From Acetobacteraceae bacterium (GTDB taxonomy: Bacteria > Pseudomonadota > Alphaproteobacteria > Acetobacterales > Acetobacteraceae), in the NCBI GenBank assembly GCA_027482245.1, contig JAIXWG010000047.1, positions 1 through 64,000 on the forward strand: DNA of 64,000 bases, in the 5' to 3' direction. The notes under the pieces were generated by a model. That model searched no databases. It was given only the letters and a program-made list of their open reading frames with translations, and was not told where the DNA came from. Positions 2,052 to 51,582 of the stretch are shown piece by piece; the first letter of the stretch is position 1; each line of letters starts with the position of its first letter. The position numbers and the translations under genes were made by a program.

Positions 2052-2822
2052 ATGGCGGATCCGGTGCTGCACCTCCGGCTGGATGGCTACGAGGGTCCGC
2101 TCGACCTGCTGCTCGATCTCGCGCGGTCCCAGAAGCTCGACATCGCCAACATCTCCATCGTGGCGCTGGTGGACCAGTACCTCGCCGTCATCGAGCAGGC
2201 GCGCGGGATGCGGCTGGAGCTGCAGGCGGAATGGCTGGTCATGGCCGCCTGGCTCGCCTGGCTGAAATCCCGCCTGCTGCTGCCGAGGGAGGAGACGGCG
2301 GAGCAGGAGGACCCGGAGGCGCTGGCCGCCCGCCTGACCGACCGGCTGGCGGAGCTGGAGGCGATGCGCGCCGGCGCCGCCTGGCTGCAGGCCCGGCCCC
2401 AACTCGGCCGCGACGTCTTCGCCCGCGGCGCGCCGGAAAGCCTGACGGTCGAGGACCGCTCCGGCATCCGCGCCGACCTCGCCAGCCTCTGCCAGGCCTA
2501 TGCCGCCGCCCGTCGCCGGGCGCTCGCGCAACGCCCCTATCGCCCGAAGCCCCGGAAACTGTTCACGGTGCAGGAGGCGATCCAGCGCCTGACGCAGGTG
2601 CTGGGGGAACTGCCATCCTGGGCCGTGCTGCAGCGCTTCATGCCGGATGACGCGGCGCTCGACCCCGTGGAGCGGCGCGCGGCCCTTGCCAGCACGCTCA
2701 TTGCGGGGTTGGAGATGGCCCGCGGCGGCGCGCTGGAGTTGCGCCAGGACCGGGCCTTCGGCCCCATCCTGCTGCGCCGTGCGGAGGCCGTGGAGGGTCA
2801 GCGGGATGTGCGCGCCGCCTGA
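2052..2822 (+). CDS. scpA: segregation and condensation protein A
   Basis: Kleisin subunit of the bacterial SMC-ScpAB condensin, which organises and helps separate the chromosome. The N-terminal YEGPLDLLLDLARSQKLDI is the hallmark SMC-neck-binding segment, followed by helices containing EWLVMAAWLAWLKSRLLLP. The C-terminal winged-helix part contains the VQEAIQRLTQVL segment. The chosen ATG gives 256 residues, a normal family length. An open frame continues further upstream but lies inside the protease gene, so the start 2 bp after that gene's stop is preferred. It is followed directly by scpB, its obligate partner. Confidence 0.93.
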   Translation: MADPVLHLRLDGYEGPLDLLLDLARSQKLDIANISIVALVDQYLAVIEQARGMRLELQAEWLVMAAWLAWLKSRLLLPREETAEQEDPEALAARLTDRLAELEAMRAGAAWLQARPQLGRDVFARGAPESLTVEDRSGIRADLASLCQAYAAARRRALAQRPYRPKPRKLFTVQEAIQRLTQVLGELPSWAVLQRFMPDDAALDPVERRAALASTLIAGLEMARGGALELRQDRAFGPILLRRAEAVEGQRDVRAA

Positions 2823-2841
2823 GGAGGATGGGGACCCCCTG

Positions 2842-3462
2842 ATGGTCCCCGACGCGATCGAGGCGCCACCCGCCGTGACGGCGGAGGCGATCCGCATCGC
2901 GGAAGCCCTGCTCTTCGCCACCGACCGCCCCCTGGCGCCGAACCGCCTGCAGCAGGTGCTGCCGGAAGGTCAGTCCGCCGATGCGGTGCTGGCCGAACTC
3001 GCGCATCTGCTGGATGGCCGCGGCGTGACGCTGGTGGAGGTGGCGGGCGGCTATGCGCTGCGCACCGCCCCCGAACTGGCGCCGGCCCTGACCCGCGTGG
3101 TGGAGGTGCCGAAGCGCCTGCCGCGCGCGGCGATGGAAGCGCTGGCCGTGATCGCCTGGCACCAGCCCGTGACGCGGGCGGAGATCGAGGAGATCCGCGG
3201 CGCCAGCCTCTCCCAGACCACGCTCGAATCGCTGCTCGAACACGGGCTGGTCGCGCCCCGCGGGCAGCGGGAGGTTCCGGGCCGTCCGACGCTGTGGGGC
3301 ACGACGCCGCGCTTCCTGGAGCAGTTCGGCCTGAAGTCGCTGCGCGACCTGCCGCGGCGGGAGGAACTGGTCAGCGCCGACGCCGCCATGCCGCTGCTGG
3401 CGGCGATGCAGGCGCCGAAGGAGGAGAAGCCGGAACCCGAGTCCGACGGCACGCCAGCATGA
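2842..3462 (+). CDS. scpB: segregation and condensation protein B
   Basis: Winged-helix partner of ScpA in the SMC-ScpAB complex. The N-terminal IAEALLFATDRPLAP and the later AVIAWHQPVTRAEIEEIRG are characteristic of ScpB, as is the second wing with GRPTLWGTTPRFLEQFGL. With the ATG at 2842 the protein is 206 residues. An in-frame ATG at 2806 with a GGAGG 9 nt upstream would add 12 residues and overlap scpA by 17 bp; either start is possible. The last 20 residues are acidic and probably disordered. Instead of running directly into tat genes as in many relatives, it is followed by a structured intergenic element and an ABC ATPase gene. Confidence 0.9.
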   Translation: MVPDAIEAPPAVTAEAIRIAEALLFATDRPLAPNRLQQVLPEGQSADAVLAELAHLLDGRGVTLVEVAGGYALRTAPELAPALTRVVEVPKRLPRAAMEALAVIAWHQPVTRAEIEEIRGASLSQTTLESLLEHGLVAPRGQREVPGRPTLWGTTPRFLEQFGLKSLRDLPRREELVSADAAMPLLAAMQAPKEEKPEPESDGTPA

Positions 3463-3486
3463 CGCTGCCGACGATGCGCCTCACGG

Positions 3487-3609
3487 CGGCCGGCCCTGCC
3501 GGCCGAGGCCGCGAAGGCGGCCCGCGCGCAAACCAGCCTGTTGGCCCGGCGCACCCGTCGCCCGCGCGAAGCCAAGGCCCCGGAGGGGCCGCCCGGCGTC
3601 TGAGGGCAT
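3487..3609 (+). promoter_or_regulatory. structured intergenic element, copy 1, upstream of the ABC ATPase gene
   Basis: The spacer between scpB and the ABC ATPase gene can fold into successive hairpins: 3487-3493 pairs with 3499-3505, 3507-3512 with 3517-3522 (loop GAAG), possibly GGCG/CGCC around 3546-3562, and a final GGCCCC-GGA-GGGGCC hairpin at about 3576-3590. It ends with GCCCGGCGTCTGAGGGCAT. The GAGGG there lies 9 nt upstream of the TTG start at 3616 and looks like its ribosome-binding site. A second copy with the same architecture, different but still paired stems and the same distance to the start codon lies upstream of nrdR. I do not recognise it as a known riboswitch class. Confidence 0.7.
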
Positions 3610-3615
3610 GAAAAG

Positions 3616-4713
3616 TTGAGCATCCGATTCGAGGGCGTCTCGCATTCCTACCCGGAGCGCGGCCAGGTGCTGCGCGGGCTCGACCTCGATGTCGGGCCGG
3701 GGGAGATCCTGTGCCTGCTCGGGCCCTCGGGCTGCGGGAAGACGACGCTGCTGCGCCTGGCCTCCGGCCTCGAACCCCTGCAGGCCGGGCGGATCACGCT
3801 CGGCGGGCAGCTGATCGCGGAGCCGGGGCGGGAGACGCCGCCGGAGGGCCGCGGCGTCGGCTTCGTCTTCCAGGACTACGCGCTGTTCCCGCATCTGACG
3901 GTGGAGGAGAACGTCGCCTTCGGGCTGCGCTTCATCCCGCGCGGGCAGCGGAAGTGGCGGATCATGGATGCGCTGGCGCGCGTCGGCCTGGAAGGCTACG
4001 CGGCCGCCTGGCCGCACATGCTCTCCGGCGGCCAGCAGCAGCGCGTGGCGCTGGCCCGTGCGCTCGCCCCGCGCCCGGCCGTGCTGCTGCTGGACGAGGC
4101 CTTCGCCAGCCTCGATGCGCGGCTGCGCGAACAGGTGCGGGACGACACGCTGCATGTGCTGCAGGAAGCCGGCATCGCGACGCTGATCGTGACGCATGAT
4201 GCGGAGGAGGCGATGTTCATGGCCGACCGCATCGCGCTGATGAATGCCGGCCAGATCGAGCAGCTCGGCACCCCCGCGGAACTCTACCTGACCCCCGCCA
4301 GCCGCTTCGTCGCGACCTTCCTGGGCGAGGTGAACGTCCTGCCCGCGCGGGTCCATGCCGGGCGGGCGGAAACCCCGATCGGCACCGTCCCGGCGCCGGC
4401 CGCGCTCGGCAACGCGCCGGTCCAGGTGCTGCTGCGGCCGGAGGGGCTGCGGGTGATGACGGCGCCTTCCGCCGATGGCCCCGCCGCGCCGCTGGCGGGC
4501 GACCTTGCGGGCTGCGGCGCGGTGGCGGAGGTGGAGGCCTGCCGGCTGCTGGGGGCGACGACGCTCGTGCACCTGGCGGTGCCGGACGGGCAGGGTGCGC
4601 TGCTGCACCTGCATGCCAGGCTGCCGCCGGGCATCTGGCTGGCGCGGGGGGAACGCGTCTCCGTCGCGATGGACCCGCAACGGGCCTTCGTATTCCCGGC
4701 GGAGGCTCCCTAG
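3616..4713 (+). CDS. ABC transporter ATP-binding protein (FbpC/PotA-like, with TOBE domain)
   Basis: ATPase subunit of an importer of the iron(III)/sulfate/polyamine type. Walker A GPSGCGKTT is at residues 36-44, the Q-loop FQDYALFPHLTVEENV near 86, signature LSGGQQQRVALARAL from 136, Walker B LLLDEAF with Asp160-Glu161, and the switch histidine in VTHDAEEAM at 194. After about residue 240 a TOBE-like regulatory domain follows (QVLLRPEGLRVM), giving 365 residues, normal for the subfamily. The start is TTG, placed 9 nt after a GAGGG. No permease or binding protein gene adjoins it, so its substrate cannot be read from context; the gene interrupts the usual scpB-tat order and may have been inserted with the structured element in front of it. 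Confidence 0.9.
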   Translation: MSIRFEGVSHSYPERGQVLRGLDLDVGPGEILCLLGPSGCGKTTLLRLASGLEPLQAGRITLGGQLIAEPGRETPPEGRGVGFVFQDYALFPHLTVEENVAFGLRFIPRGQRKWRIMDALARVGLEGYAAAWPHMLSGGQQQRVALARALAPRPAVLLLDEAFASLDARLREQVRDDTLHVLQEAGIATLIVTHDAEEAMFMADRIALMNAGQIEQLGTPAELYLTPASRFVATFLGEVNVLPARVHAGRAETPIGTVPAPAALGNAPVQVLLRPEGLRVMTAPSADGPAAPLAGDLAGCGAVAEVEACRLLGATTLVHLAVPDGQGALLHLHARLPPGIWLARGERVSVAMDPQRAFVFPAEAP

Positions 4714-21680: not shown

Positions 21681-23198
21681 ATGGGCCTGTTCGATCCCAA
21701 GGGCACCGATGGCGACGACGAGTTCATCGCCTGGCGCGCGACCGGCATGTTCGGGGAGTTCATCGACCTCGGGAACGGCCGCAACGTCGTCCGCGGCTTC
21801 GGCGGCAACGACAGCATCTTCGGCGGCGATGGCCGGGATTCGATGTATGGCGACGAGGGCGACGACTACCTGCATGGCGGCGGCGGTGCCGACAAGCTCT
21901 ACGGCGATGCGGGGAACGACACGCTGTTCGGGCATTTCGGCAACGACACGCTGGATGGCGGGGCGGGCGACGATGAACTCCGCGGCTTCGAGGATGACGA
22001 CATCCTCTTCGGCGGCGATGGCCGGGACACGCTGGATGGCGGCATCGGCGCCGATACGCTGGATGGCGGCGCCGGCGCGGATACGCTGAAGGGCGATGAC
22101 GGCGCGGACCTGATGGATGGCGGCGCGGGCGACGACACGCTGGATGGCGGCAACCAGGACGACACGCTGAAGGGCGGCGCGGGCAACGACCAGATGGATG
22201 GCGGCGCCAACAACGATTGGATGGATGGCGGCACGGGCGACGACCAGATGCAGGGCGGGCAGGGGGCGGACACGCTGTTCGGCGCCGCGGGCAACGACAA
22301 CATCTCCGGCGGCATCGGCAATGACAGCCTGGCCGGCGAACAGGGCAACGACGTCCTCGATGGCGGCCAGGGCTTCGACACGCTCCAGGGCGGCATGGGC
22401 GCGGACCTGCTGCGCGGCGGCGACGATGACGACCTGCTGGTCGGCGACGTGGTGGGGGAGGCCGGCTTCGGCGCCGATACCCTCCAGGGCGGCTATGGCC
22501 GGGACACGCTGCAGGGCGCGGGCGGCCACGACCGGCTGGACGGCGATGTGGGCGACGACCTGCTGGAAGGCGGCGCCGGCAACGACACGCTGAATGGCGG
22601 CGCGGACAATGACCGGCTGCTGGGCGGCGTCGATGACGACACGCTGCGCGGCGATGCGGGGCAGGACACGCTGGAAGGCGGCAGCGGCCGCGACGTGCTG
22701 GATGGCGGCGCGGGGAATGACAGCCTGCTGGGTGGCGCGGATGCGGACCGGCTGCTGGGCGGCGCGGGCGACGACGTGCTGATGGGCGGCGCAGGCCAGG
22801 ATACGCTGGTGGGCGGGCTCGGCGTCGACCAGCTCTTCGGCGGCGCGGAGGCGGACATCTTCGTCTGGACCCAGGCGGATGTCGGCAAGCTCAGCGCCGC
22901 GGGCCAGCTGAAGTATGCGGGGGTGCGGGACGTGGTGCATGACTTCCAGGCCGGGGACCGGCTGGATGTCTCCGGCATCGATGCCCAGCCCGGCGGTGCC
23001 GACGACGCCTTCCTCTTCATCGGCACCGACCGCTTCCTGACGGGGGGCAACCACGGGCAGATCCGCTACCAGGCGCAGGGCGGCGACACGCTGGTGCAGC
23101 TGGAGATGAACGGCGACGGCATCGCGGATCTGGAGATCCTGGTGAGCGGCACCCACGCCCTGCGCTTCGACGCGCAGGTCCAGGATTTCGTCCTGTAG
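21681..23198 (+). CDS. RTX (hemolysin-type calcium-binding repeat) protein
   Basis: Nearly the whole protein from about residue 30 to 390 is a tandem array of Gly/Asp-rich nonapeptides of the GGxGxDxLx type (for example LDGGAGDDTLDGG), which fold into a calcium-binding beta-roll after secretion. The C-terminal 110 residues (ADIFVWTQADVGKL, VVHDFQAGDRLDVSG, FLTGGNHGQIRYQ) match the serralysin-type C-terminal module read by type I secretion systems. There is no catalytic domain, signal peptide or cysteine-based domain. The ATG at 21681 is chosen because GGAG precedes it by 6 nt; an ATG at 21669 would add four residues. No type I exporter genes are nearby. Likely role: extracellular calcium-dependent surface or matrix protein. 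Confidence 0.88.
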   Translation: MGLFDPKGTDGDDEFIAWRATGMFGEFIDLGNGRNVVRGFGGNDSIFGGDGRDSMYGDEGDDYLHGGGGADKLYGDAGNDTLFGHFGNDTLDGGAGDDELRGFEDDDILFGGDGRDTLDGGIGADTLDGGAGADTLKGDDGADLMDGGAGDDTLDGGNQDDTLKGGAGNDQMDGGANNDWMDGGTGDDQMQGGQGADTLFGAAGNDNISGGIGNDSLAGEQGNDVLDGGQGFDTLQGGMGADLLRGGDDDDLLVGDVVGEAGFGADTLQGGYGRDTLQGAGGHDRLDGDVGDDLLEGGAGNDTLNGGADNDRLLGGVDDDTLRGDAGQDTLEGGSGRDVLDGGAGNDSLLGGADADRLLGGAGDDVLMGGAGQDTLVGGLGVDQLFGGAEADIFVWTQADVGKLSAAGQLKYAGVRDVVHDFQAGDRLDVSGIDAQPGGADDAFLFIGTDRFLTGGNHGQIRYQAQGGDTLVQLEMNGDGIADLEILVSGTHALRFDAQVQDFVL

Positions 23199-45157: not shown

Positions 45158-45619
45158 ATGAACCCTGCCAATACCCCTGTCGCACTCGGTGCCGACCATG
45201 CCGGCGTGGCGATGAAGGCCGCGATCCGGGAGATGCTGGAGGCCGCCGGGCGCCCGGTGACGGACCTCGGCACCCATGGGACGGAGAGCGTGGACTACCC
45301 CGATTTCGGCGCCGCCGTGGCTTCCGCCGTGGCGGAGGGCCGCGCCGCCTTCGGCGTGCTGGTCTGTGGCACCGGCATCGGCATCTCCATCGCCGCCAAC
45401 CGCAACCCCGCCATCCGCTGCGCCCTGGTGCATGACGTGACGGGCGCGCGGCTGACCCGGCTGCACAACGACGCCAACGTCATCGCCCTCGGTGCCCGCA
45501 TGACCGGGATCGAGGTGGCGCTGGACGCCGTCCGTACCTTCCTTGCCACCCCCTTCGAGGGCGGCCGCCACGGGCGCCGCATCCAGAAGATCAGCCCCGG
45601 TTGGAGCGCGCGCCTATGA
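45158..45619 (+). CDS. rpiB: ribose-5-phosphate isomerase B
   Basis: Interconverts ribose 5-phosphate and ribulose 5-phosphate. The 153-residue protein has [13 protein letters not shown] at the N-terminus, the catalytic Cys70 in [15 protein letters not shown], and [20 protein letters not shown]. The family also includes allose-6-phosphate isomerases, but the operon position before glyA, as in many alphaproteobacteria, supports RpiB. The ATG is the start of similarity; the frame is open further upstream. The stop codon overlaps the glyA start (ATGA). Confidence 0.94.
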
Positions 45620-46914
45620 ACGAGACCATCCCCGCCGTGACCCCCGCCCGCTTCTTCTCCGCCCCGCTCGCGGAGGTCGATCCCGAGCTGGCCGCCTCCA
45701 TCGGCGACGAGCTGGTGCGGCAGCAGGACGGGATCGAGCTGATCGCGTCCGAGAACATCGTCTCCCGCGCCGTGCTGGAAGCGCAGGGCAGCGTGATGAC
45801 CAACAAGTACGCGGAGGGCTATCCGGGCCGCCGCTACTATGGCGGCTGCGAATTCGTCGATGTGGCGGAGGCGCTGGCGATCGAGCGCGCAAAGAAGCTG
45901 TTCGATTGCGGCTTCGCCAACGTCCAGCCGCATAGCGGCGCGCAGGCCAACCAGGCGGTGTTCCTGGCCCTGCTGCAGCCCGGCGACAGCTTCATGGGCC
46001 TCGACCTGGCGGCCGGCGGGCACCTGACCCATGGCGCGCCGGCCAACATGTCCGGCAAGTGGTTCAAGCCCGTCCCCTACACGGTGCGGCGGGGAGACCA
46101 GCGGATCGACATGGCGGAGGTCCGGCGCATCGCGCTGGAGAACAAGCCGAAGCTGATCATCGCCGGCGGCTCCGCCTACGCCCGCACCTGGGATTTCGCC
46201 GCGTTCCGTGAGATCGCGGACGAGGTCGGCGCCTATTTCATGGTGGACATGGCGCATTTCGCGGGCCTGGTGGCCGGCGGCGCGCACCCGTCCCCGTTCC
46301 CCCACGCGCATGTCGCGACGACGACCACGCACAAGACGCTGCGCGGCCCGCGCGGCGGCATGATCCTGACGAATGACGAGGCGCTGGCGAAGAAGTTCAA
46401 CAGCGCCGTCTTCCCCGGCCTCCAGGGCGGCCCGCTGATGCATGTCATCGCCGCCAAGGCGGTGGCCTTCGGGGAGGCGCTGCGGCCGGAATTCCGGACC
46501 TATGCGAAGCAGGTCGTGGCGAATGCCAATGCGCTGGCGGTGGAGCTGAAGGCGCAGGGGCTAGATCTCGTGACGGGCGGCACCGACAACCACCTGGTGC
46601 TGGTGGACCTCCGCCCGAAGAAGCTGACGGGCAAGGCGGCGGAGGGCGCGCTGAACCGCGCCCACCTCACCTGCAACAAGAACGGCATCCCCTTCGATCC
46701 GGAGAAGCCGATGACCACCTCCGGCGTCCGTCTCGGCAGCCCCGCGGCGACGACGCGCGGCTTCGGGGAGGCGGAGTTCCGCCAGGTGGGCCAGATGATC
46801 GGCGAGGTGCTGGACGGGCTGGCGAAGGCCAATGCGCCGGACGGCAATTCGGCGGTCGAGGCCGCGGTGAAGGGCAGGGTGCTGGAGCTCTGCCGGCGCT
46901 TTCCGATCTACTGA
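45616..46914 (+). CDS. glyA: serine hydroxymethyltransferase
   Basis: PLP enzyme that interconverts serine and glycine and supplies one-carbon units to tetrahydrofolate. The PLP lysine is Lys240 in [14 protein letters not shown]. Further landmarks are [35 protein letters not shown] and [16 protein letters not shown]. Length 432 residues is standard. The start is translationally coupled to rpiB; a TTG 15 bp upstream is not needed. It is followed by the second copy of the structured element and nrdR. Confidence 0.97.
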
Positions 46915-46947
46915 GGCCGTGATGGCAAAGGGCGCTCCCCTCAAAGG

Positions 46948-47075
46948 CGGCCCGCGCCCTTCAGCGGGCCGAGCGGCCGAATGGCCGCCGCGCCCAGACC
47001 GACCGCATAGCCCGGCACGCGAGTGCAAGGCGCGAAGGCAAGCGCGCGGAGCGCGCGCCCGCCGTCTGAGGGCAT
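46948..47075 (+). promoter_or_regulatory. structured intergenic element, copy 2, upstream of nrdR
   Basis: Between glyA and nrdR the plus strand folds as in copy 1: 46948-46955 pairs with 46964-46971, then after GA 46973-46978 pairs with 46983-46988 (loop GAAT), GCAC with GTGC around 47015-47026 (loop GCGA), and GCGCGC-GGA-GCGCGC at 47042-47056. It ends GCCCGCCGTCTGAGGGCAT, 7 nt before the nrdR ATG, with GAGGG placed as the ribosome-binding site. From 46989 to the end it aligns without gaps over 87 nt to 3523-3609 with about 70 percent identity by hand count. Stem changes relative to copy 1 keep pairing. Confidence 0.7.
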
Positions 47076-47081
47076 AGATAT

Positions 47082-47534
47082 ATGCGCTGCCCGTTCTGTG
47101 GGAACGAAGACACGCAGGTGAAGGACAGCCGCCCGGCGGAGGATGGGGCCTCCATCCGGCGCCGGCGGTCCTGCCCCGCCTGCGGCAACCGATTCACCAC
47201 CTTCGAACGGGTGCAACTGCGCGAGCTGCTCGTCATCAAGACCGATGGCCGCCGCGTGCCCTTCGACCGCGACAAGCTCGCGCGTTCCGTCCGCGTGGCG
47301 CTGCGCAAGCGGCCCTTCGACGAGGAACGGATCGAGCGCATCGTCTCCGGCATCCAGCGCCGGCTGGAAGTGGAAGCGGATAGCGAGGTCACCAGCCGCC
47401 GGGTCGGCGAGGTGGTGATGGAAACGCTGCGCGATGTGGACGAGGTGGCCTATGTGCGCTTCGCCTCGGTCTACCGGAATTTCCGGGAGGCCAAGGATTT
47501 CCGGGCATTCCTGGGCAAGATCGAAGGCTCCTGA
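47082..47534 (+). CDS. nrdR: transcriptional repressor NrdR
   Basis: Zinc-ribbon/ATP-cone repressor of ribonucleotide reductase genes. The four zinc-binding cysteines are Cys3, Cys6, Cys31 and Cys34 ([10 protein letters not shown] and [10 protein letters not shown]). The ATP-cone follows, starting [20 protein letters not shown], and [18 protein letters not shown] closes the protein. Length 150 residues is exact for the family. The order glyA-nrdR-ribD is conserved in alphaproteobacteria. Its ribosome-binding site is the GAGGG inside the structured element. Confidence 0.97.
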
Positions 47535-51390: not shown

Positions 51391-51399
51391 TCGCCTCTT

Positions 51400-51552
51400 C
51401 CCTCCCCCGCGCTTGCGGGGGAGGGTTAGGGTGGGGGAGGCGCAGGGCGCTGGCTCCTCCCGCCCCAAGTTCCGGTGCCCTACGTGCTCGCCGCATCGGC
51501 CCGCAGGCCGGCGACCCCCACCCCGACCCTCCCCCGCAAGCGCGGGGGAGGG
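51400..51552. repeat. inverted pair of REP-like palindromes between nusB and thiL
   Basis: Two 38-bp arms, 51400-51437 and 51515-51552, are inverted copies of each other with two mismatches, separated by 77 bp. Each arm carries its own 11-bp hairpin (CCCTCCCCCGC with GCGGGGGAGGG, 4-nt loop) and a GGGTTAGGGTGGGGG tail. This is the layout of a REP doublet (REPIN/BIME). A related single copy is at 34998-35039. In transcripts it would form a large stem that could separate nusB from thiL expression. Confidence 0.8.
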
Positions 51553-51582
51553 AGCAGTCCGCATGCCGCTGGCTCTGAGCGC

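Follow-up and report, generated by a model that had tools for sequence, protein, structure and literature searches.

The locus raises the question of why a spacer made of several hairpins, placed immediately before the start codon of an ABC transporter gene, recurs with its stems changed in pairs before an unrelated gene of the same 64,000-nt stretch of DNA (the window, i.e. the whole stretch that was analysed). The first-pass annotation read these changes as the mark of selection on RNA or DNA structure, and proposed either a cis-regulatory RNA or a structured repeat that had been taken over as a leader for translation. The two window spacers are copies of a dispersed, between-gene, multi-hairpin element; very probably, this is a MITE-like structured mobile repeat moved by transposition, whose hairpins may be exchanged and whose copy at nrdR has probably been domesticated as a leader.

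Genes were called with an author's own codon-usage script, which gives 63 genes in the window, with a summed length of 57,057 of the 64,000 nt. Copy 1 (core at 3483..3608, forward strand, like all features described here for the window) lies between scpB (2806..3462, start uncertain; TIGR00281 116.9 bits, cut-off 89.2) and the gene of an ABC transporter ATPase (3616..4713), which starts with TTG at a position conserved in relatives; as to the subtype of the ATPase, all 25 families listed score below their cut-offs. Copy 2 (46944..47074) is found in a glyA, nrdR, ribD neighbourhood, between glyA (45616..46914; NF000586 631 bits) and nrdR (47082..47534, start ATG 47082; TIGR00244 171 bits, cut-off 124.65). 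The two downstream genes are unrelated. Both copies are long forms, composed of S1 of 8 bp, S2 of 6 bp with a GAAN loop, S3 of 6 bp in a long-loop form, S4, and the tail TGAGGGCA; S4 combines an outer 3-bp helix, GCC/GGC or GGC/GCC, with an inner helix of 6 bp closed by a GGA loop. In copy 1, S1 (CGGCCGGC-CCT-GCCGGCCG, 3487..3505) and S2 (GGCCGC-GAAG-GCGGCC, 3507..3522) were read from the sequence, while S3 (3523..3568, pairing CGCGCG 3523-3528 with CGCGCG 3563-3568) was assigned by analogy with the structure of R2, a model of the nrdR leaders from seven genomes; S4 (3571..3597) has an outer GCC/GGC and an inner GGCCCC-GGA-GGGGCC (3576-3590). In copy 2, S2 is GCGGCC-GAAT-GGCCGC (46973..46988) and the inner hairpin of S4 is GCGCGC-GGA-GCGCGC (47042..47056), both read from the sequence.

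The sequences, coordinates and common hairpin order that had been claimed are correct, the two cores having one fold, and so are the paired changes in S2 and in the last stem; to these must be added the outer helix of S4, which flips from GCC/GGC in copy 1 to GGC/GCC in copy 2 and was absent from the earlier annotation. S4 of copy 1 also shows paired changes when compared with the orthologous site of F. algicola. The stretch CGTCTGAGGGCAT occurs exactly at 3597-3609 and 47063-47075 and nowhere else in the window, and includes the tails (3601..3608 and 47067..47074), the presumed Shine-Dalgarno sequences of the ABC ATPase gene and of nrdR; each ends 7 nt before its start codon (TTG 3616, ATG 47082), so that a role as ribosome-binding site, as had been suggested, is tenable for both genes. 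No Rfam family matches the element: the window gives tRNA only at the gathering score, and at E ≤ 10 the copy 1 region gives one CRISPR-DR match (E 8.4).

Further copies, which the annotation had proposed to seek with a covariance model, are abundant. The model R1 was built from alignment A2, made of 15 short-form copies of the same genome (row L017, shifted by one base near S4, was kept), with the window copies not among them; since it nevertheless scores copy 1 at 69.7 bits (E 1.7e-8) and copy 2 at 59.9 bits (E 8.3e-7), their likeness to the other copies is far beyond chance. R2 gives 80.2 bits for copy 1 and 163.6 bits for copy 2, the latter not being independent, as copy 2 is a training row of R2. 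A nucleotide search yields 52 matches in the own genome, and R1 finds at least 86 places there at E ≤ 1e-3. In a survey of 39 genomes, own genome included, R1 detects the element in all 15 of the genus Falsiroseomonas (at least 23-93 places each, with about 107 candidates scored per genome), in none of eight from other genera of the Acetobacteraceae, and in three of 16 from other families of the class; G033, a genome of another family, has 22 matches. The repeat family belongs to Falsiroseomonas, has kin elsewhere in the Alphaproteobacteria, and often sits at stop codons. When R1 was run over 80 loci of fmt, 11 gave matches at E ≤ 0.01: six at 48-90 bits, from Falsiroseomonas and the closest Roseomonas (L111, L112, L113, L115, L145, L170), and five at 34-55 bits, from F. 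selenitidurans (L124), Plastoroseomonas (L126) and three MAGs (L156, L162, L182). Matches on plasmids are one in Azospirillum oryzae, one in Pannonibacter and two in Niveispirillum; the search of phages gave no match and that of viral contigs for the S4 pattern gave none. In the A. oryzae plasmid, a kin element of 39.7 bits (L110, 2996-3078) has a TRAP transporter substrate-binding gene on one side and the gene of an ABC ATPase on the other. Among the titles and abstract openings listed from the open-licence literature, none describes this repeat in Roseomonas or Falsiroseomonas.

Complete copies comprise, besides the four hairpins S1-S4 and the TGAGGGCA tail, a terminal hairpin on the 3′ side, and they are bounded by TACC...GGTA. 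In 82 own copies the GC content is 0.73-0.86. Pairing is well kept: 97.0% of the pair cells of A2 are paired, against 81.5% after shuffling, with both-sided changes in 16 of 29 pairs (8.7 in shuffled data). For 82 own copies (from 75 of 81 mapped loci) aligned to R1, the values are 98.2% against 76.1%, with both-sided changes in 22 of the 29 pairs; this alignment was fitted to the R1 structure and is hence biased towards pairing, but the signal is lost when the partner is slid by 1-3 columns. The stems draw on a limited set of sequences: in S2, GGCCGC accounts for 85 of 162 and GCGCCC for 33 (nine CGGGTG being parse artefacts of a nested hairpin), while in S3 three sequences cover 116 of 125. 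The one shared structure and the paired stem changes that the annotation described are upheld; the paired changes alone do not establish that RNA was selected step by step, since a hairpin that has changed mostly has done so at several pairs. Some copies carry a second hairpin, GGGTGCCCATGCGCGTTGC...GGGGTCCCG, within the S2 loop, in the same place where seen (L025 1499-1639, L056 1501-1640, L009 1499-1638), and its presence differs between species at shared sites; a third, GTCACGCCG.AGGCGTGCCTTCGGCACGAC, lies inside S3 or S4 of several copies (L030 1498-1619, L015 1400-1552, L107 1501-1667).

As regards location, 85 of the 86 own copies had a locus, and only one of these lies mostly within a predicted gene. 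The 84 copies with both neighbours called comprise 24 sense and 24 antisense copies between co-directional genes, 33 between convergent genes and three between divergent genes, compared with 50 convergent, 196 co-directional and 44 divergent among all 290 adjacent gene pairs in the copy loci (chi-square p=1.4e-5). With no strand preference, the element is not a strand-specific leader, and the tie to start codons drawn from the two window copies does not extend to the family. Copies in both orientations, with no relation to start codons, had been named as evidence against a leader; this is largely what the family as a whole displays, but the copies are placed between genes, not inside them. One own copy (L074 1484-1601) sits in the first codons of fmt, with the reading frame open throughout, and judging from the sequence it may provide methionyl-tRNA formyltransferase with an N-terminal extension. 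In the comparison of Fmt across species the nearest relatives are F. stagni, F. algicola and Roseomonas ponticola, all of which lack this copy; an antisense copy is present at the def-fmt junction of AR75, F. bella and F. oryziterrae.

Complete short copies, as distinct from the two window copies, in neither of which TACC/GGTA ends or a target duplication are recognisable, have inserted as a unit in the manner of DNA transposons and MITEs, being bounded by TACC...GGTA terminal inverted repeats and a 3-bp TNA target duplication. TNA covers TAA and TGA together with their reverse complements TTA and TCA; consequently, insertion at a stop codon leaves the stop intact in both orientations. Comparison with F. 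algicola was possible for 35 of the 86 own copies, those with both flanks in the stretches fetched, and for 15 of them (14 sites) F. algicola has a site that falls short by more than 60 nt. Clean empty sites with a 3-bp duplication are seen with TCA at C54:127635 and C54:45057 and with TGA at C65:74418 and C19:68574, e.g. gtagTCAgtcg in F. algicola against gtagTCA|tacc...ggta|TCAgtcg in the own genome; at C27, C49 and C40:56608 the shorter site is not clean and holds other sequence.

The duplication is also apparent across the copies. In 25 of 85 copies a T[CG]A stops precisely 22 nt ahead of the core; the other offsets from 0 to 41, leaving out 20-23, average 2.5. A second peak at offset 0 (19 copies) arises because many cores follow their own TGA. 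By eye, among the 28 copies with TNA at 21-22 nt, seven have no judgeable 3′ end and 20 of the remaining 21 have the same TNA after it, the single mismatch being TGA/TCA; 14 of the 20 matching duplications are the stop codon of a neighbour, three overlap an ATGA start, and three are neither. A fixed rule, which asks for GG[TC]A and then TNA at the 3′ end, 20-56 nt past the core, admits 19 copies, of which four have no 5′ TNA at 21-22 nt and 14 of the other 15 match. A loose rule, which accepts an equal TNA anywhere from 24 to 46 nt past the core, gives a weaker signal (21 of 28 copies, shuffled mean 14.7, with 27 of 5000 shuffles as high), and an unrestricted search for inverted ends (4 nt) with duplications (3 nt), in which GC-rich chance matches are abundant, gives 44 of 85 against 41.3 in shuffled data. 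In G033, 11 full elements of 145-146 bp were found by an end pattern that demanded a TNA at each side, equal or not, and in 10 of them the two TNA are identical (TAA, TTA or TGA).

The short, multi-copy unit contains no transposase gene (138-204 bp, at least 86 copies), and mobility would be conferred by a DDE transposase acting in trans. A scan for TNA with a 10-bp inverted repeat (≤2 mismatches, 80-2600 bp) over 3.36 Mb of loci of at least 2.8 kb, in which overlapping loci count repeatedly and most loci were picked for carrying copies, gives 14 hits, all of 138-204 bp, with no autonomous partner having the same ends and transposase-sized room. Two end-pattern searches for such a partner in the own genome gave seven hits each: six on known copies and one chance-looking (L340) in the first, all on copies in the second.

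Among known systems, bacterial MITEs are the closest in being short, multi-copy, with inverted ends, target duplications, and empty sites in relatives; unlike them, the element is GC-rich (0.73-0.86), with several maintained internal hairpins, and no parent transposon was found in the 3.36 Mb of loci scanned or by end pattern in the own genome. In the account given in PMC3049150 MITEs are AT-rich, and the element is accordingly filed as MITE-like rather than as a textbook MITE. From the same account, the pneumococcal BOX elements share with it a modular composite structure, variable internal modules, interspersion, a stable fold if transcribed, and effects on neighbouring genes; compared with that account by architecture and not by sequence, the present element differs in host phylum and GC content, in its TNA duplications and stop-codon seating, and in that its modules vary within a mostly fixed order of four hairpins. 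The IS1031 group of the IS5 family is described as inserting at 5′-TNA-3′ with a 3-bp direct repeat (PMC12016507), as does our element; however, the ISLrh ends given there start with GAACC and those of the element with TACC, so that this likeness is a lead only. As to other repeats of the class, Rickettsia palindromic elements insert in frame, and the fmt copy, which leaves the frame open, recalls these alphaproteobacterial palindromic repeats; the likeness is one of description, not of sequence, and in-frame insertion is exceptional here. Alphaproteobacteria also have long intergenic repeats with CcrM sites (GANTC); this candidate was rejected, GANTC being present in 2 of 85 cores.

How the stems change in time can be followed at the 18 same-site copies common to the own genome and F. 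algicola, some of which could be independent insertions. For S2-S4, 30 hairpins were parsed in both species, after removal of two module-insertion parse artefacts and leaving out S1: 23 are unchanged, three have one-sided changes and four have two or three paired changes, while exactly one paired change is found in none. Counting hairpins of equal length, changes affect 17 of 352 stem nucleotides and 17 of 111 loop nucleotides (p=6e-4), and in S3 alone 1 of 96 and 8 of 32, respectively; at sites shared by the two species, stems stay paired while loops drift. Whole nested hairpins are also found in one species and missing in the other at shared sites. The arrival of paired changes two or three per hairpin suggests that hairpins are exchanged between copies. 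Single-pair compensation does occur, as the nrdR leader of F. algicola has a lone change in S1, from C-G to T-A.

The nrdR site differs from the rest of the family in its constancy. Leader models find a match before nrdR in 13 of the 15 genus genomes, with scores of 147-164 bits for the seven training rows, 65 for G008 and 27-43 for G007, G012, G009, G010 and G014; by eye, the low-scoring leaders have a different S1-S2 arrangement. Of the other two genomes, G005 has the S4 motif and the tail by eye only (R1 20.3 bits, E 0.14), and G011, unmatched by the leader models, has other sequence there. In the 14 genomes with the tail, the gap to the ATG is 7 nt in 12, 6 nt in one and 8 nt in one. The distance from the glyA stop codon to the nrdR ATG is 167-201 nt, with a stretch between glyA and the element that varies in length and is unalignable by eye. 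Over seven genomes, identity is 90.7% for the leader, 90.4% for nrdR and 88.6% for the last 300 nt of glyA; the leader is thus conserved at the level of coding DNA, not tellingly above that of the coding DNA nearby. In two genomes, three pairs of S4 have changed in this leader, the inner and outer helices having flipped together. Conserved position, spacing and sequence indicate that the nrdR copy has probably been domesticated. At the scpB-ABC site, R1 matches the own genome, F. algicola, G007, G011 and, more weakly, G010 (31.5 bits), with no match in the other 10 genus genomes; the site is empty in G006 and G004, relatives as close as F. algicola. Copy 2, matched before nrdR in 13 genomes, is a leader that has been conserved, and copy 1, matched at scpB-ABC in five, is patchy. 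G010 has also a second copy (L205 2598-2683, 54.8 bits), which follows closely on the ABC ATPase gene.

A genuine class of cis-regulatory RNA, resembling a riboswitch or bound by a protein and acting in sense on the downstream gene, would agree with the conservation of the nrdR leader at coding level with its 6-8 nt spacing, and with the behaviour of other sense long forms. R2 has many matches in the genus, with long forms among the matches listed; from these, 40 further long-form loci were fetched (131-145 nt, new loci, short contigs and already-fetched stretches excluded). Nine of the 10 sense copies among them have a start codon within 3 nt of the model end, so that a sense long form can usually supply a ribosome-binding site, and in the own genome four of five sense long forms are separated from a start codon by exactly 7 nt; in the fifth, C19:38324, the model end is cut by a nested hairpin and the start follows the tail by 8 nt (by eye). 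However, most of the fetched long forms are not sense (26 antisense between co-directional genes, 4 convergent), the own copies are without strand preference overall, the window neighbours are unrelated genes, and the glyA-nrdR spacer of 11 genomes outside the genus has no match to R1 or R2 at E ≤ 0.01. Such a class is unlikely; of the two alternatives originally offered, mixed orientation speaks against the general leader, and the 13 genomes at nrdR favour the recruited repeat. It is possible, though not probable, that a function under selection at the ends of genes (terminator, protection of the mRNA 3′ end, nucleoid or gyrase site) maintains the hairpins locus by locus: stems are kept at fixed sites, and convergent spacers are over-represented at the expense of divergent ones (33 and 3 of 84 copies, 50 and 44 of 290 adjacent pairs). 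Yet presence is patchy between close species, and insertion at TNA and stop codons explains the location as well.

The paired changes themselves might come about in replication, if hairpins are corrected on their own template (quasi-palindrome repair) with neither selection nor copy-to-copy exchange, a process that would keep stems paired anywhere and would explain stem upkeep with drifting loops; but new stems are drawn from a small shared repertoire, several pairs at once, and shared sites gain or lose entire nested hairpins, so that this explanation is a serious though less probable rival. Palindromes of the REP/BIME type moved by a RAYT, a Y1 HUH transposase, are extragenic and form modular arrays (PMC2817692), and the element resembles what is described there in being dispersed, intergenic, palindromic, and rare between divergent genes. 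PF01797 (Y1, the RAYT fold) has 0 matches in the own genome and is positive in 5 of 14 control genomes, and the 3-bp duplication with inverted ends would point to a DDE-type transposase; this origin, already disfavoured, is very improbable.

The MITE-like reading, in which a mobile repeat exchanges its hairpins and was taken up at nrdR, would connect these observations as follows. TNA targeting would seat the element on stop codons, in either orientation, without breaking the gene, and would help to explain the crowding at gene ends; a transposon whose target coincides with a stop codon has a simple route to safe ground. Purifying selection together with the TNA target might alone account for the preference for stop codons. 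Gene conversion would then swap whole hairpins between copies, and paired changes would thus arrive several at a time. An old long-form copy at nrdR would have been domesticated as leader and ribosome-binding site, with copy 1 at the ABC gene as a patchier case of the same process. Cassette swapping, if true, yields a strong covariation signal without base-by-base compensation; hence the caution that covariation, a standard sign of functional RNA, can also arise when mobile hairpins are swapped whole. The same-site pairs, both the filled and the empty ones, allow the recruitment of a repeat into gene control, as at nrdR, to be tested directly. A broader proposal, of an alphaproteobacterial superfamily of interchangeable hairpin cassettes that target the TNA of stop codons, insert harmlessly, swap single hairpins and include some essential leaders such as that of nrdR, is put forward only tentatively.

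Two further repeats were noted in the window. A 39-bp inverted repeat, TCCCTCCCCCGCG..., at 51399-51553 is of another kind; G011 (before nrdR) and F. algicola (at the C40:56608 site) have sequences that look similar. In the region 21749-22871, units of 27 nt form an array (25 windows, with 60-71% likeness to the reference), which, judging by its period, we take to be probably an RTX-type glycine-rich calcium-binding repeat.
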